From NCBI GenBank assembly GCA_021776335.1, contig JAJFGB010000011.1, positions 434,001-498,000 on the forward strand: a stretch of DNA of 64,000 nucleotides, written 5' to 3'. Of the stretch, positions 34,813 to 48,725 are shown one piece after another. Position numbers and translations under genes: made by a program. Under the pieces are notes generated by a model. It saw only the letters and a list, made by a program, of their open reading frames with translations, was not told the DNA's origin and did no database searches. Numbering within the stretch: position 1 is the first letter of the stretch; each line of letters starts with the position of its first letter. Source of the DNA: Hyphococcus sp. Lineage in GTDB: Bacteria > Pseudomonadota > Alphaproteobacteria > Caulobacterales > Parvularculaceae.

Positions 34813-34868
34813 AGCGGTTCGCACGACAAAAGATTCCCGTTTCGTTCCAAACGCCCTATGGTCGGGCC

Positions 34869-35381
34869 ATGAGTTCAGTGATTCGCATTTTCGGGATCGA
34901 TCCCGGTTCGGCGGCGACAGGTTGGGGCGTAGTCGATCGCGCCGGCGCCCGGCTTTCCTATGTCGCTTCCGGGGTCATCCGGCCAAAGCGAGGTTCAGCG
35001 CACGCCGAAAAACTGGCGCAGATTTTCTCAGCGCTGAGCGGCCTCATCGCCGACCACCAACCTAATGAAGCGGCGGTTGAAGAGACTTTCGTCAACGCAT
35101 CCCCCCGCGATGCACTGGTGCTGGGGCAGGCCCGGGGCGTGGCGCTGTTGACCCCGTCTCTGGCGGGCTTGCCGGTCGCGGAATATGCTGCGAATTCGGT
35201 CAAAAAATCCGTCGTCGGACGAGGCCACGCAGATAAGCAACAAGTGCAGGCGATGGTGAAGGTGTTGTTGCCGCTTTGTGCAGCGAATGGAAAAAAATTG
35301 GCGGATGATGAAGCGGATGCGCTGGCGATTGCGATCTGTCATGCACATCACCTTGATATGCGCCGGTTGGAGGCGTCATGA
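34869..35381 (+). CDS. ruvC: Crossover junction endodeoxyribonuclease RuvC
   Basis: Holliday-junction resolvase of 170 residues. The catalytic carboxylates are in [16 protein letters not shown] (D11), V-E-E-T-F-V-N-A and the C-terminal [17 protein letters not shown], all typical. It cuts junctions migrated by RuvAB. The stop codon overlaps the ruvA start (ATGA), so translation is coupled, and the order ruvC-ruvA-x-ruvB is alphaproteobacterial with one extra gene before ruvB. Start ATG 34869 gives the normal N-terminus. Confidence 0.96.
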
Positions 35382-36004
35382 TTGGACGGCTTAAAGGCAC
35401 CGTCGCGGCAATTGGCGAAGAGACGGCGCTGATCGACGTGATGGGCGTTGGTTATGAAATTTATGCGGCATCGCGCCTGTTACAGCGCCTGGGTGTTGGC
35501 GAGGCAGCGACGTTGTCGATCGAAACGCTCGTGCGTGAAGATTTGATCCGGCTGTTTGGCTTTGAAAATGAAGCAGAGCGCCAGTGCTTTCGATTGTTGC
35601 AATCAGTGCAGGGGGTTGGCGCTAAACATGCGCTGGCGCTCTTACAGATATTGCCGCCGGCGGCGCTTTATGATGCGATCGCTGCCGAAGATGTGACCGC
35701 GATTTCGAGAGCCCACGGGGTCGGCAAAAAAATTGCCCAACGCATCGCAACTGAACTTCAGTCAAAGATCGGCGCTCTCGCTGGCGCCAGCGGGGAGAGT
35801 TTCACTGTGGCAGCGCGCAAAACAGCAGCGGTAGTATCTGACCCCGCACTGGCAGCGCGCGCTGATGCGGTGTCGGCGCTGGCGCATCTAGGCTATGATG
35901 GCGCAGAGGCGCGCCGCGCGGTTTCGCTTGCTGCCGAAGCGCGTGACGGTGCGGGCGTAGAGGATTTGATCAAAGCGGCGCTCAAAGAACTGGCGCCAGC
36001 GTGA
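35378..36004 (+). CDS. ruvA: Holliday junction DNA helicase subunit RuvA
   Basis: Tetrameric DNA-junction-binding protein of 208 residues that loads RuvB onto Holliday junctions. The N-terminal OB domain ([20 protein letters not shown]), the two helix-hairpin-helix segments ([11 protein letters not shown] and [11 protein letters not shown]) and the C-terminal RuvB-interacting domain ([13 protein letters not shown]) are all present. It overlaps ruvC by 4 bp (ATGA). The FtsH-like small gene starts 7 bp after its stop codon. Confidence 0.96.
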
Positions 36005-36011
36005 GGAAAAA

Positions 36012-36503
36012 ATGAAATTACTGTTTGCGCTGACCGCCGCAATTCTTGTGCTCGTAGCAAATGCCGCTGCGCAGGACGCAGAAGCGGACGGCGCTGCGGA
36101 AAGGTCCGAAATCAGTTACTCCGCATTGCGGAAATTAATCGATAATGGGCGTGTTCGCGGAGCGACAATATCTGGCGACGGATGGTGGGTTACTGTATCG
36201 ACATCCGATGGATCAATACATCATACGCGTGTAACACCGAATACGCCGATTGCAGATCGATTGGTTGATGCAGGCGTGCGTACAGAATTCCTGCACACTG
36301 ATGACGATGAAGAATTACCGCTGTTACTGTCGTTGTTTTTTAATATTCTTCCATTGCTGATTTTTATCGGCTTCTTTTGGTTCGTGATATCTCGTATGAA
36401 GGGAAAAAATAGTGATTATTATTCACGCGCTGAAAAATTGAACGCCGATTTTCTGGAGCGATTAGAAAAGCTTCTTAGTGAGCAGAAATCATCAGATGAC
36501 TGA
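36012..36503 (+). CDS. Stand-alone FtsH N-terminal-domain protein (no ATPase or protease), inserted in the ruv operon
   Basis: 163-residue membrane protein resembling only the N-terminal part of FtsH. Residues 1-21 form a signal peptide or first TM helix (ending N-A-A-A-Q). Residues about 34-97 match the FtsH periplasmic domain ([22 protein letters not shown]). Residues 101-118 ([18 protein letters not shown]) match the second TM region of the full-length FtsH in this window (its residues 99-116) at 17 of 18 positions. A short charged tail replaces the AAA+ and M41 domains. GAGGA lies 4 bp before ATG 36012, and the last 8 bp overlap ruvB, so it is translated with the ruv operon. The local sequence appears more AT-rich than its neighbours. 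Function is unknown; formation of mixed oligomers with FtsH is inference. Confidence 0.85.
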
Positions 36504-37539
36504 ACCTGCTTACGATAATGACGACCGATTGATTGAGGGAACGCGCAAGCCCGAAGATGCTGATGCGGCATTGCGGCCAAAGCGTCTTGATGATTTCATC
36601 GGCCAGCCAAGCGCCAAGGATAATCTTCAGGTTTTCGTCGCGGCTGCACGCCAGCGGGATGAAGCGCTCGATCATGTTCTTTTTCACGGGCCGCCGGGGC
36701 TGGGTAAGACGACGCTGGCCCAGATTGTCGCCAATGAACTGGGCGTCAATTTCCGATCAACATCGGGGCCGGTGATTACAAAACCCGGCGATCTTGCAGC
36801 GCTTTTGACGAATCTCGAAGCCGGCGATGTGCTTTTCATTGACGAAATTCACCGGCTTAGCCCTGTGGTCGAGGAAGTGCTCTATCCGGCGATGGAGGAT
36901 TACGCGCTTGACCTCATGATCGGTGAGGGCCCGTCTGCGCGCTCAGTTAAAATAGATCTGCCGCGCTTTACGCTGATCGGCGCCACGACGCGCTCCGGCC
37001 TTCTTGCCAAACCCCTGCTTGACCGTTTTGGCATACCGATCAGGCTCGATTTTTATTCGCCGGGTGATTTGTGCGCGATCGTTTCCCGCGGCGCCGAAAA
37101 GCTTGGGGCTGAGATGGCGATGGACGGCGCCATGGAAATTGCGCGCCGGTCTCGCGGTACACCGCGCGTTGCCGGCCGGCTTTTGCGTCGGGTCCGCGAT
37201 GTCGCAACGGTTGAGGGCGCCGGCAGGATCGATGCTGGCGTCGCTGACAAAGCCTTAAAGCGTCTTGAAATTGATGGTCTTGGTCTCGATCCGCTTGACC
37301 GGCGTTATCTTGGTCTGATCGCGGAGCATTTTGGCGGCGGGCCCGTCGGCGTTGAAACGCTTGCAGCAGCGCTCGCTGAAGCGCGCGATGCCGTTGAAGA
37401 CGTTGTTGAGCCGTTTTTGCTGCAGCAAGGCCTTATCCAGCGCACGCCGCGCGGGCGGGTTCTTTCCGCCAGCGCCTGGAAGCATCTCGGGCTTGCGGCG
37501 CCAAAGAGCATCGGCGTTGAATTGTTTCCGGAGAAGTAA
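36496..37539 (+). CDS. ruvB: Holliday junction branch migration ATPase RuvB
   Basis: AAA+ motor of the RuvABC resolvasome, 347 residues. Walker [20 protein letters not shown], Walker B in [10 protein letters not shown], sensor 1 in [11 protein letters not shown] and the arginine-finger/sensor 2 region [15 protein letters not shown] are all visible, followed by the winged-helix DNA-binding domain. The start at ATG 36496 ([10 protein letters not shown]) overlaps the FtsH-like gene by 8 bp; a GTG at 36478 is a less likely alternative. The length is normal. Confidence 0.97.
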
Positions 37540-37628
37540 AACCACGCCGAAGCGGCAATCCAATACGCCTTATTAGGAAAATTCAGAGACAATAGGCCCG
37601 TTCACGAACGCAAAACGGGAGGCGTGCA

Positions 37629-38132
37629 ATGGGCGGGTTGGTGCTTTTCTTCGGGCTGTTCTTCGCGATCGGCTTCGGCATTCTTGGTTTTGGCGTGCAT
37701 TCCATGCATATGGCGAAGAAGGCCGAGCACTGGCCGACGGTTCCGGGGCAGATCACTTCATCCGATTTTGTCGTAAGTTCCGACGACGACGGCACGAGCT
37801 ACCGGACGAAACTGTCCTATACGTACAATGCCAATGGGCGCGACTACACAAACAAAAAGATCGCTTTTGGCTATGCCGGGTCGAGCAGCCAGAAATTCCA
37901 CCGCGATATTTATGATGCGCTGCCGGTCAATTCACAGGTCGCGGTGCGCTATGATCCCGCCAACCCCGAGCGTGCCGTTCTTTCATTTGGAATTCACCAG
38001 TCGATCATGTTTTTGATGTTGTTCGGCGCGACCTGGACGCTTTTTACTGCGGGCATGGCCGCCATGTTCTGGCTGAGCGGTCAGGGCGTCGGCGGGCTGG
38101 TCGAAAATATGATCATTTTCTCGCGCGGATAA
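37629..38132 (+). CDS. DUF3592 domain membrane protein
   Basis: 167-residue protein with two TM helices (about 3-25 and 127-150) flanking an extracytoplasmic beta-rich domain. The domain pattern (W-P-T-V-P-G-Q-I-T-S-S; Y-T-Y-N-A-N-G-R-D-Y; V-A-V-R-Y-D-P-A-N-P-E-R-A-V-L) is characteristic of DUF3592. No enzymatic motif is visible and the function is unknown. It lies between ruvB and ybgC, two genes often closer together in related genomes. ATG 37629 is preceded by GGAGGCG. Confidence 0.85.
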   Translation: MGGLVLFFGLFFAIGFGILGFGVHSMHMAKKAEHWPTVPGQITSSDFVVSSDDDGTSYRTKLSYTYNANGRDYTNKKIAFGYAGSSSQKFHRDIYDALPVNSQVAVRYDPANPERAVLSFGIHQSIMFLMLFGATWTLFTAGMAAMFWLSGQGVGGLVENMIIFSRG

Positions 38133-38177
38133 TTGCGGTGCGGCGAAGCCGTCGTTCTTTGAGCCGGCGGCGCCCAA

Positions 38178-39269
38178 TCAGGCTGAAATATCAAAAGCGC
38201 GCAAATGTCCGGTAATCCGCCTGCGCAACGCAGCGTCATCTAATCCATCGACAGCGATGACGGCATAGTTTCGGACCCCAGATGCTTTGGCAATGAAGAG
38301 ATTTGCTGAATGCCACCAGTCGCGCCGGGTGAGCTCGATGACGTTTTTTGTGCGCCAGTGCATGACGCCGAACAGCGCCGAGCCTTGATCAGCAATAACG
38401 GTTTCTGTTTGCGCTGCAATGTCGTTGAATTTGTCCGGAGACGCCTCGCGTGCGTCAAAAACAACTCCGCCAACGGATTTGATGATCTTGGCAACGGCCT
38501 CAGTCGGATACTCTCTCTGTACGGATTCAGATATGGCGCTGAAACGCCCGAGATAAATTGTGGATCCTTCTTGTGGTTGCGGCGGCGTGATGCTGAATGC
38601 CTTACGATAGGCAGTGACTTCGCGATGGCTCCAGTAATAGCTTGGCAAGCGCTTGCGCAACACTGTTGCTGTGGCGATCCGTATCGGCTCTGTCGCTGCG
38701 ACGTAAGAAAGGCCCAGCGCTTTCAAGTCACGCTTCACGTATGATTTTTCGGCCAGAAATGCAGGCAGGATCAGCGGTTCGACAATATTTTCTGAAGTGG
38801 CGAGTGCACAGATGAAATCTCCGACCCAGTCGCCATATGTATAGGGCGTTTCGGCTTCAATGATGGTGCCGCGCGGCCGTTCAACAGCTGCGTGGCGCGG
38901 GGTTTTCAGGATGTCGGGAATTGACGGCGCGCGCACCGAGCAGCGCTCGACGATCTTTCCGTCGACGACGCCCATGCCTGTGGGCGTATAAGTCAGGTTT
39001 TGGAAAACCTCGCGCTCCGGACGCGCCGCCGCGTAAACCAGCCGCCGCTGTGCTGGTTTGTCGCCAGTTGGCATCAGCGTTTCGGTTTGCACGGTATCGA
39101 TTTCGGCTGTAGTTCGCGGCGTCCACCGCCCTGTATGCGCCAGCGCGCGCCGCAGTGGCCCAGCCACAATATTTTTGGCGCGCACCAAAGGGTGGGTCCA
39201 GTCTGGATTGCCGAGGATTTTCATAAGGTCAAGCGTTACAGTGCTTGAGCCTTTCGGGGCAAGCGGCAT
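38178..39269 (-). CDS. Glycosyltransferase 61 (DUF563)-like protein
   Basis: Minus-strand gene of about 363 residues from ATG 39269; an in-frame GTG at 39383 would add 38 residues that lie towards the ybgC promoter and are not clearly conserved. The C-terminal half matches the GT61/DUF563 style: T-I-Y-L-G-R-F, a following V-F-D-A-R-E-A-S-P, then VIADQGSALFGVMHWRTKNV, where the invariant G-S-A-L and the following aromatic stretch are typical. GT61 enzymes transfer xylose, GlcNAc or related sugars to glycans; substrate unknown here. No polysaccharide genes adjoin it. Confidence in the family is moderate. Confidence 0.7.
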   Translation of the reverse strand: MPLAPKGSSTVTLDLMKILGNPDWTHPLVRAKNIVAGPLRRALAHTGRWTPRTTAEIDTVQTETLMPTGDKPAQRRLVYAAARPEREVFQNLTYTPTGMGVVDGKIVERCSVRAPSIPDILKTPRHAAVERPRGTIIEAETPYTYGDWVGDFICALATSENIVEPLILPAFLAEKSYVKRDLKALGLSYVAATEPIRIATATVLRKRLPSYYWSHREVTAYRKAFSITPPQPQEGSTIYLGRFSAISESVQREYPTEAVAKIIKSVGGVVFDAREASPDKFNDIAAQTETVIADQGSALFGVMHWRTKNVIELTRRDWWHSANLFIAKASGVRNYAVIAVDGLDDAALRRRITGHLRAFDISA

Positions 39270-39401
39270 AAAATCATGGGCGTGCGTTTGATCTCGTGTT
39301 AGCAGCACAACAACGCATATTGCCCGCCCGGGTGATTGCACCTGCGATCTGGCGAAATTGATCGCGTTTGCGATCGGGGACACACAGGATCACGTCACCT
39401 C

Positions 39402-46790: not shown

Positions 46791-48725
46791 ATGAACGGAC
46801 GCAATATACTGATCTGGGGTCTTGTGATCGTCTTTTTCTTTGTTGCACTCCAGCTTTTTGAGTTTTCGCCGCAGGGCCCGCAGCAAACCGAACTTACTTA
46901 TTCCGACTTTATTGATCGGATTGAGAATGGCGGCGTGCGCAGCGCTGACGTCGCTAAATCTGAAATTACCGGCACGCTCAGCGATGGAACGGAATATATC
47001 ACGACGATTCCCGAAGACGGGCACACAGCAATCGCAGACCGTCTCAATGATGCTGGTGTTTTGACCCTGATCAAAAAAGAAGAAGAGCTTCCTTTGCTCC
47101 TCTCGCTCTTGTTCAATATTCTACCGCTACTGATTTTCCTTGCGTTCTTTTTCTTTGTGATGCGGCAGATGCAGGGCGCAGGTGGCAAGGCCATGGGCTT
47201 TGGCAAATCGCGTGCAAAGCTGCTGACTGAACGCCAGGGCCGCATTACTTTTGATGATGTTGCCGGCATTGACGAAGCCAAGGAAGAACTCGAGGAAATC
47301 GTCGAGTATTTGAAAGACCCGATGAAGTTTCAGCGCCTCGGCGGCAAGATACCGAAAGGCGCCTTGCTGGTTGGTCCACCAGGCACCGGTAAGACGTTGT
47401 TGGCGCGTGCGATTGCCGGCGAAGCCAATGTTCCCTTCTTCTCGATCTCAGGCTCGGACTTTGTTGAAATGTTTGTCGGTGTCGGTGCTTCGCGCGTGCG
47501 CGATATGTTCGAGCAGGCGAAAAAGAATGCACCGTGCATTATCTTTATCGACGAGATTGATGCTGTCGGCCGTCATCGCGGCGCCGGTCTTGGTGGCGGT
47601 AATGATGAGCGCGAGCAAACGCTGAATCAGCTGCTGGTTGAGATGGACGGCTTTGAATCCAACGAAGGCATTATTCTGATTGCCGCAACCAACCGCCCGG
47701 ATGTCCTCGATCCTGCGCTGCTGCGTCCAGGCCGATTTGACCGCCAGGTTGTTGTTCCTAATCCCGACGTTGTCGGCCGGGAAAAAATCCTGCAGGTGCA
47801 CATCAAAAAGGTGCCATTGGCGCCGGATGTTAATGTCCGCACGGTCGCGCGCGGCACGCCTGGTTTTTCTGGCGCTGACCTCGCCAACCTTGTTAACGAA
47901 GCGGCGCTGTTGGCAGCCCGGCGCGGCCGGCGTTTTGTTACGGCGAAAGAGTTTGATGACGCCAAGGATAAGGTTCTCATGGGCGCTGAACGTCGCTCCA
48001 TGGTGATGACCGAGGATGAAAAAATGCTCACCGCCTATCATGAGGCGGGCCATGCGATTGTCGGTCTCACGATGCCCGGCTCTGACCCGGTTCACAAAGC
48101 AACCATTATCCCGCGCGGGCGCGCGCTTGGTATGGTTCAATATCTTCCTGAACGCGACAAGCTTTCATTTTCTCTCGAGCAAATGAAAGCGCGCATCGCG
48201 ATGTCCATGGGCGGGCGCGTCGCCGAAGAATTGAAATTTGGCAAAGAGAAAGTTACCTCCGGCGCCTCTTCAGATATTGATCATGCGACAAAACTCGCCC
48301 GGGCGATGGTGACGCAATATGGCCTGTCAGAAAAGCTCGGACCCATTGCTTATGCAGAAGATGAAGGCGAGGTCTTTCTCGGCCAGTCGATCGCCCGATC
48401 CAAGGCGATCTCCGGTGATACGGCGAAAACCATTGAAGATGAAATCCGCCGTTTTGTGACAGAAGGTTATGACAAGGCGCGTCAGATTCTGACTGATCGT
48501 AACAATGACTGGGAAGCTGTGGCGCAAGCGCTTTTGGAATTTGAAACGCTGACTGGCGACGAAATCGATGGGTTGTTGAGGGGCGAAAAGATCGTCCGCG
48601 AAGATCCGTCCGATCCTCAGGATCACACGCCGCCTTCTTCGGTGCCGTCATCTGGCGTCCCTGCGTCAGGCAAGAAAAAAGACGATGGCGCTGGCGGTAT
48701 GGAGCCGAGCCCGCAAGGGGCGTGA
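46791..48725 (+). CDS. ftsH: ATP-dependent zinc metalloprotease FtsH
   Basis: 644-residue membrane AAA+ protease that degrades misfolded membrane proteins and regulators such as RpoH or LpxC. The first TM is at about 6-22, followed by a periplasmic domain, the second TM ([18 protein letters not shown] at 99-116), Walker A GPPGTGKT (195-202), Walker B in [15 protein letters not shown], the SRH region [18 protein letters not shown] and the zinc motif HEAGH (H417). The length is normal. A truncated paralogue of its N-terminal part is encoded in the ruv operon at 36012-36503. The following minus-strand block separates it from folP and glmM. Confidence 0.97.

Follow-up and report, generated by a model that had tools for sequence, protein, structure and literature searches.

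What is a free-standing copy of the FtsH N-terminal region doing between ruvA and ruvB, and does it act on FtsH? The question is raised by a short open reading frame (ORF) in a 64,000-nt stretch of Hyphococcus sp. DNA, here called the window. An initial annotation, made from the letters alone, described the ORF as an N-terminal half of FtsH, suggested that it could modulate FtsH by co-assembly and that it might be a fossil duplication or an acquired regulator, and left its place in a recombination operon unexplained. Our analysis finds a real, lineage-restricted paralogue of the FtsH N-domain, remodeled at both ends, which lies in a variable slot of the ruv operon and is probably under SOS control.

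An FtsH N-domain gene within the ruv operon

The ORF is real and sits where it had been placed, on the plus strand between ruvA and ruvB, giving the gene order ruvC-ruvA-X-ruvB, where X is the FtsH N-domain ORF (Table 1). The tight coupling claimed for it also holds, as X begins with an ATG 7 nt past the ruvA stop and its 3' end shares 8 nt with the start of ruvB at ATG 36496. That ATG is the likely ruvB start and is preferred over the mechanically listed GTG at 36478 because alignments with the RuvB of relatives begin, in most loci, at the first residue encoded from it.

TABLE 1 Coordinates of the ruv operon, of the parts of the X protein and of full-length FtsH in the window
Feature	Position	Strand	Basis and remarks
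LexA-like box ATTCCCGTTTCGTTC	34833..34847	+	GTTCN7GTTC with 1 mismatch; ruvC ATG at 34869; spacing 22 nt
ruvC, first gene of the operon	34869..35381	+	Pfam RuvC
ruvA	35378..36004	+	Pfam RuvA_N, HHH_5, RuvA_C; 4-nt overlap with ruvC
X, free-standing FtsH N-domain protein, 163 aa	36012..36503	+	ORF list and Pfam; SD-like GAGG at 36003-36006
Signal-peptide-like leader, residues 1-20, in place of FtsH TM1	36012..36071	+	Sequence by eye; AxA at 18-20
FtsH_ext periplasmic domain, about residues 28-95	36093..36296	+	Pfam stretch 3-88; Foldseek to 2muy, 4v0b, 7wi3, 4m8a
TM segment like FtsH TM2, about residues 104-127	36321..36392	+	Alignments with FtsH; model helix 104-162
New tail helix, putatively cytoplasmic, not found in FtsH	36393..36500	+	Alignments, profile searches
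Overlap ATGACTGA, X stop and ruvB start	36496..36503	+	
ruvB	36496..37539	+	Pfam RuvB_N, AAA_lid_4, RuvB_C
Full-length FtsH, presumed paralogue and presumed partner	46791..48725	+	Pfam FtsH_ext, AAA, AAA_lid_3, Peptidase_M41

The X protein retains the FtsH periplasmic domain and has new ends

Pfam supports the identification of X as a free-standing FtsH N-domain protein: FtsH_ext (PF06480) is matched at 30.7 bits (E 3.7e-07), above the curated cut-off of 25.5, and the only other match at E ≤ 0.1, F-93_WHD, reaches 14.9 bits, below its cut-off of 28. As had been claimed, the AAA+ and M41 domains are missing, neither being matched at E ≤ 0.1 in the 163 residues. The named stretch with 17 of 18 residues identical to the full-length FtsH of the window is confirmed, and BLASTP against that FtsH gives 37% identity over 135 columns (E 5e-06 as a single comparison). 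Searched against its own genome (4.18 Mb), the protein matches two places at E ≤ 1, itself and full-length FtsH, the second at E 6e-20. Together with five relatives described below, the window's protein makes up a family of six short forms, and FtsH_ext is matched by five of the six at E ≤ 0.1.

The fold was examined with an AF2 model (pLDDT 88.1, pTM 0.55), whose input alignment held 37 sequences (6 short, 31 FtsH), so the model is informed by FtsH. In a Foldseek search of this model against the PDB, every hit at E ≤ 0.001 (17 of 17) is a chain from an FtsH or FtsHi-complex entry, with target-normalized TM-scores of 0.74 to 0.86 to isolated periplasmic domains and E 2.1e-06 for 2muy; weaker matches, from E 0.005, include ribosomal proteins. 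The predicted structure thus has the periplasmic alpha+beta fold of FtsH_ext.

A closer look at the six proteins shows where they part from FtsH. The description as an N-terminal half of FtsH fits the periplasmic domain and TM2 and fails for the leader and the C-terminal tail, which are not FtsH-like. FtsH starts with an ordinary TM segment where the short forms carry the leader, which we read as a Sec signal peptide; an AxA is visible by eye in all six, followed by Q, E or G, with A18 invariant in two alignments and A20 in one only. The leader and the TM2-like segment were assigned by eye, from alignments and from the model helix. Two extra residues are present in the periplasmic domain of all six short forms (GWW in four) and are absent from seven FtsH rows inspected in the same alignment. 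TM2 is poorly kept in three members (G023, G064 and G052). In the tail, the motif YYxRAEKxxADFxERLEKLL is clear in four of the six and altered in G041b and G023. As both ends are new, the leader replacing TM1 and a helical tail replacing the cytoplasmic part, the protein is not simply half of FtsH.

The tail was not found in FtsH. In the order-wide list of matches, those of full-length FtsH stop by model position 142 of 169, before the tail, and elsewhere in the window's own genome the best match to the tail covers 15 residues at 13 bits (E 0.5). A weak second match gave the idea that the tail derives from the C-terminal helix of FtsH; this was rejected, as a profile of the six tails scores at most 0.8 bits, at scattered places, in 24 full-length FtsH proteins.

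Short forms occur in a few relatives, each time at the ruvA-ruvB junction

Of 62 family genomes, six yielded a short form: four of one genus (G000, G043, G041, G023) and two of two other genera (G064, G052). In every carrier the gene sits at the junction of ruvA and ruvB. Relatives therefore conserve the protein as well as its place in the ruv operon; the initial annotation had stated that their absence would make the gene a likely neutral leftover. As no short form was detected in the other 56 family genomes, some of which are incomplete, the gene is dispensable.

No short form was seen elsewhere in the 398 genomes of the order or the 385 genomes sampled from the class. In the order search, short forms score 198 to 260 bits and the best FtsH 82 bits among the matches listed, so that a short form scoring far lower might have escaped notice. 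At E ≤ 1e-12, the class sample yielded no short form besides that of the window's own genome; a 247-aa frame (G720) also matches there, without the tail. A profile search of 54 named locus records found the protein in three, all among the six carriers; a locus search with the single protein as query returned no relative.

One metagenome-assembled genome (MAG), G041 (M_MetaBat.60), has two ruvAB sets with different slot genes on separate contigs (L073, L074), which may reflect contamination or two copies. Its FtsH N-domain gene, designated G041b, is on a contig of 4,059 bases and could come from another organism binned into the same MAG.

The junction of ruvA and ruvB is a variable slot

Of 58 loci, drawn from 57 genomes, two lack ruvA, and the gap between ruvA and ruvB was measured in the other 56. 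Within the window's own genus, 19 of 26 loci (25 genomes) have a gap of more than 150 bp and the other seven one of at most 25 bp; gaps above 150 bp are found in 4 of the 30 loci from other genera (G052, G064, G044 and G061). In three neighboring genera (g13, g18 and g19), a ruvB start with a 4-nt ruvA overlap is available in 18 of 19 loci, the exception, G054, having 10 or 22 nt. Inside one genus, this same gene pair has turned into a place where different genes insert.

As a control, neighboring junctions were compared in 19 loci of the genus, an insert being a gap more than 150 bp above the smallest. Inserts occur at ruvA|ruvB in 12 of 19 loci and at ruvB|ybgC in 18 of 19, followed by ybgC-tolQ (5), tolB-pal (2) and pal-cpoB (1), with none at ruvC|ruvA (n = 18), tolQ-tolR, tolR-tolA, tolA-tolB, cpoB-tilS or tilS-ftsH. 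The ruvB|ybgC junction is thus even more variable than the slot, its gap ranging from 23 to 4,275 bp (19 loci). In the window this interval (37540-39335) holds a DUF3592 protein at 37629-38132 and a 401-aa minus-strand ORF at 38178-39383.

The occupants of the slot vary, being the FtsH N-domain gene, genes for DUF1508, DUF559 or other proteins, or nothing. DUF1508 proteins were identified by Pfam in G021, G005 and the main contig of G041, and DUF559 by Pfam in G009 and by eye in G021, G041b, G044 and G061. The remaining occupants, several of them hydrophobic by eye, have no family above cut-off; they are 6 of the 10 proteins scanned with Pfam. Of the 23 slots longer than 150 bp, 22 have a lower G+C content than the ruvA next to them, with G061 as the exception; in the window the slot has 45.6%, compared with 59.2% for ruvA and 59.0% for ruvB. 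The presence of X in a recombination operon, which the initial annotation could not explain, is thus accounted for in part: ruvA|ruvB is a variable slot in this genus, and the operon carries a LexA-like box.

The FtsH N-domain gene fits the slot closely, starting -4 to +18 nt from the ruvA stop in all six carriers and ending -11 to +1 nt from the ruvB start in five; in the sixth, G041b, a DUF559 gene intervenes. Other genes in the slot can be coupled to ruvB just as tightly: 6 of 12 other occupants measured also overlap a ruvB start or end within 6 nt of one (G004, G011, G012, G017, G020 and G040), the one in G012 being tight to both ruvA and ruvB.

Several further features of the slots were noted. 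In five relatives (L106, L111, L073, L077 and L078) a DUF559 gene closes the slot on the ruvB side, once behind the FtsH N-domain gene, and one may speculate that it drives slot turnover. DUF1508 proteins, with leaders that look twin-arginine-like by eye, are a recurrent occupant (L106, L050 and L074). Short slots of 169 to 200 bp (L034, L036, L049 and L051) have no ORF longer than 73 aa and contain what appears by eye to be palindromic, dispersed-repeat-like DNA. In five of seven empty slots (L037, L041, L042, L045 and L048), a TACGGAT-containing segment precedes the ruvB start and could be either a ribosome-binding site or an insertion scar.

A LexA-like box precedes the operon

A GTTCN7GTTC-type operator, as expected for a member of the LexA regulon, lies upstream of the window's ruv operon and has a single mismatch (Table 1). 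Sites with at most one mismatch are found within the 160 bases searched in 39 of the 47 family loci with enough upstream DNA (related genomes, hence not independent; nine loci lie outside the count), compared with 17 of 883 random 160-base windows; the remaining 8 of 47 have no such box. Five of the carriers (G000, G043, G023, G064 and G052) have the box, and G041b falls outside the testable set. A second site with at most one mismatch lies inside ruvC in G000.

At the genome scale the picture is mixed. The tighter pattern RTTCCCSTTTYGTTC occurs once in the genome, at the ruv operon, and three GTTCN7GTTC-like sites lie 76 to 105 nt before the genome's only LexA_DNA_bind gene. The exact GTTCN7GTTC is not enriched genome-wide, with 75 sites compared with 97 for the reversed control, and no recognized SOS gene was seen by eye at the eight sites checked. 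As the exact motif lacks such enrichment, the case for the box rests on its position and conservation. In Caulobacter, passages of two papers give GTTCN7GTTC as the LexA box and name ruvC and ruvCAB as SOS genes (PMC12700426, PMC9578287), the latter paper reporting induction of ruvCAB by DNA damage. Judging from box and position, X is probably coexpressed with ruvAB and induced through LexA on DNA damage.

A single origin from the family's own FtsH is favored

We placed the carriers on a tree of RuvA plus RuvB with 54 loci, two of 56 having been dropped by a length filter. The six carriers need six changes on this tree, the maximum possible, and each adjoins a noncarrier, not all of these pairs being strongly supported. 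The short proteins themselves form one group, with support of 100/100 on all columns and 90/96 (not starred) on shared columns, and this group clusters with the FtsH proteins of the slot-bearing genera (95/86). A tree that puts the short forms outside the family's FtsH is not rejected by an AU test (P = 0.161), and some long branches are present. We infer that the family's own FtsH gave rise to the gene a single time, through a duplicate of its N-terminal part that received a new leader and tail, and that the gene was later lost or replaced many times. The scatter of carriers fits a single origin with many losses; it also fits repeated exchange of the slot through recombination in the flanking ruv genes. 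As for the proposed acquired regulator, a role as regulator is possible, and the evidence leans toward a home-grown gene over an acquired one.

The other proposal, a fossil duplication, is not borne out. The members have diverged to 20 to 52% identity and keep a common architecture, and a fossil is unlikely because all six reading frames are open and intact and mismatches are most frequent at codon position 3 in 15 of 15 member pairs. Scattered relatives with the gene at the same place suggest a working, possibly DNA-damage-linked regulator and not a gene fossil.

A possible link to FtsH and its alternatives

Our leading explanation, held tentatively and at a little under even confidence, is that X is a lineage-specific, probably SOS-coexpressed paralogue of the FtsH N-domain that docks on FtsH or HflKC. 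Such docking would be the likeliest mechanism. The N-domain would lie in the periplasm and the tail in the cytoplasm, with the surfaces of the N-domain and TM2 contacting FtsH (or HflKC), and this contact might alter how FtsH assembles, admits substrates or binds HflKC during the SOS response. Having a single TM and lacking an ATPase, X would serve as docking subunit, decoy or adaptor, and its tail helix would perhaps present a client. A precedent is LapB, whose TM helix interacts with FtsH (PMC9356133), and the role of the FtsH periplasmic region is described as still open (PMC13097134).

With regard to contact with FtsH, each short form was compared with the FtsH proteins of the six genomes, G041b being paired with the FtsH on the MAG's other contig. 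Pairs from the same genome score above expectation: for the whole region, 17 of 720 permutations reach the observed affinity, with 12 of 720 for TM2 and 101 of 720 for the periplasmic part alone, the signal having been sought after the alignment was seen and in three regions, uncorrected for their number. Without G041b, the observed values are reached in 5 (whole region), 14 (periplasmic part) and 6 (TM2) of 120 permutations. One TM2 site matches the genome's own FtsH in G000 (F, the common residue), G043 (I) and G041 (L) and does not in G023, and TM2 is equally similar to the FtsH of noncarrier sisters (72% for G017 and 53% for G022). This weak, post hoc covariation is a hint at most.

Two other accounts of a functioning or tolerated gene merit consideration. 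X may be an SOS-linked membrane effector that no longer touches FtsH, its N-domain serving as a membrane-anchored fold, for example in cell division or at the envelope. The LexA-like box, the small form with one TM, the hydrophobic look of some other slot proteins and the divergence of TM2 in three of six members would all suit such a role, for which the SOS-induced division inhibitors SidA (PMC12700426) and SosA (PMC6851548) offer precedents. We consider it unlikely, as the N-domain is still recognizable as FtsH_ext in five of six members and no division-inhibitor family is matched in Pfam or NCBIfam. It is likewise doubtful that X is nearly neutral cargo, one passenger among many in a slot that tolerates inserts in this genus. 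The unrelated, usually low-GC genes, or nothing, found in the slot otherwise point that way, as do the six changes on the RuvA-RuvB tree, the fast divergence of the members and the equally tight ruvB coupling of half of the other occupants measured. Neutral cargo sits poorly, however, with six intact genes of the same four-part layout and shared invariant positions, with the excess of position 3 changes and with the lack of decayed remnants in slots without the gene, where none scores above 2.8 bits.

It is far less probable that a phage or other mobile element delivered X to the hotspot as an FtsH interference gene, similar in effect to lambda CIII, an FtsH inhibitor (PMC1838920). The patchy distribution and low slot G+C would be in keeping with such an origin. 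Against it, the sequence groups with the family's own FtsH, in a tree that is not decisive; tblastn searches of 50,697 phage records and 72,556 plasmid records find nothing; and no relative was confirmed in viral contigs, scanned with one tail pattern. PADLOC, too, has no family for the FtsH N-domain protein. For six of seven slot proteins it gives none, and the seventh (DUF559) has part matches to four larger defense models (best E 4.7e-08).

Comparison with known systems

X differs from the systems most similar to it. With the FtsH N-terminal region (PF06480; 4v0b, 2muy, 4m8a and 7wi3), X has in common a periplasmic alpha+beta domain followed by TM2; unlike FtsH, it lacks AAA+ and M41, has a leader for TM1 and two extra residues, and ends in a new C-terminal helix. 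The FtsHi and Ycf2-FtsHi complexes (8xqw, 8xks, 8xkv and 8xku), which rank high in the fold search, contain FtsH relatives with the N-domain, but their chains have 603 to 1112 residues, compared with 163 and no ATPase for X. To our knowledge, FtsHi has no protease activity.

A possible functional likeness is to small or membrane-anchored FtsH binders that change its activity, namely HflK/HflC, LapB-YejM, YccA, SpoVM and lambda CIII. YccA and SpoVM are membrane modulators of FtsH. None of the FtsH adaptor and modulator families is matched by X in the Pfam and NCBIfam scans, and in the titles, abstract openings and passages surveyed none of these modulators is described as a copy of the FtsH N-domain itself. 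With proteins of the SidA, SosA and YneA type, X shares the form of a small membrane protein and an operon with a LexA-type box. YneA is an SOS-induced small membrane division inhibitor. These three are division inhibitors, whereas X is an FtsH N-domain to which no sequence relation of theirs was found. Among the matches listed in open-licence articles, whose titles and abstract openings were searched, none dealt with an FtsH N-domain that forms a protein by itself or with a slot for genes at the ruvA-ruvB junction.

For work on FtsH, a central protease of the membrane, X offers a natural, separately kept copy of the periplasmic domain and TM2, extended by a new tail, with which the function of the domain alone could be probed. 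Through the place of its gene, X would couple recombination genes under SOS control to proteolysis in the membrane. A broader reading, which we think rather unlikely, is that Marinicaulis-like bacteria use ruvA|ruvB as a dedicated cargo slot within an SOS operon. One recurrent occupant, a purpose-built FtsH N-domain decoy or adaptor, would tie repair to membrane proteolysis, and the others, half of which are likewise coupled to ruvB, would serve as alternative effectors upon DNA damage. The junction may be variable outside this family as well: three records named Oceanicaulis (L191, L197 and L198) have ruvA-ruvB gaps of 124 to 151 bp, and others of that name differ.
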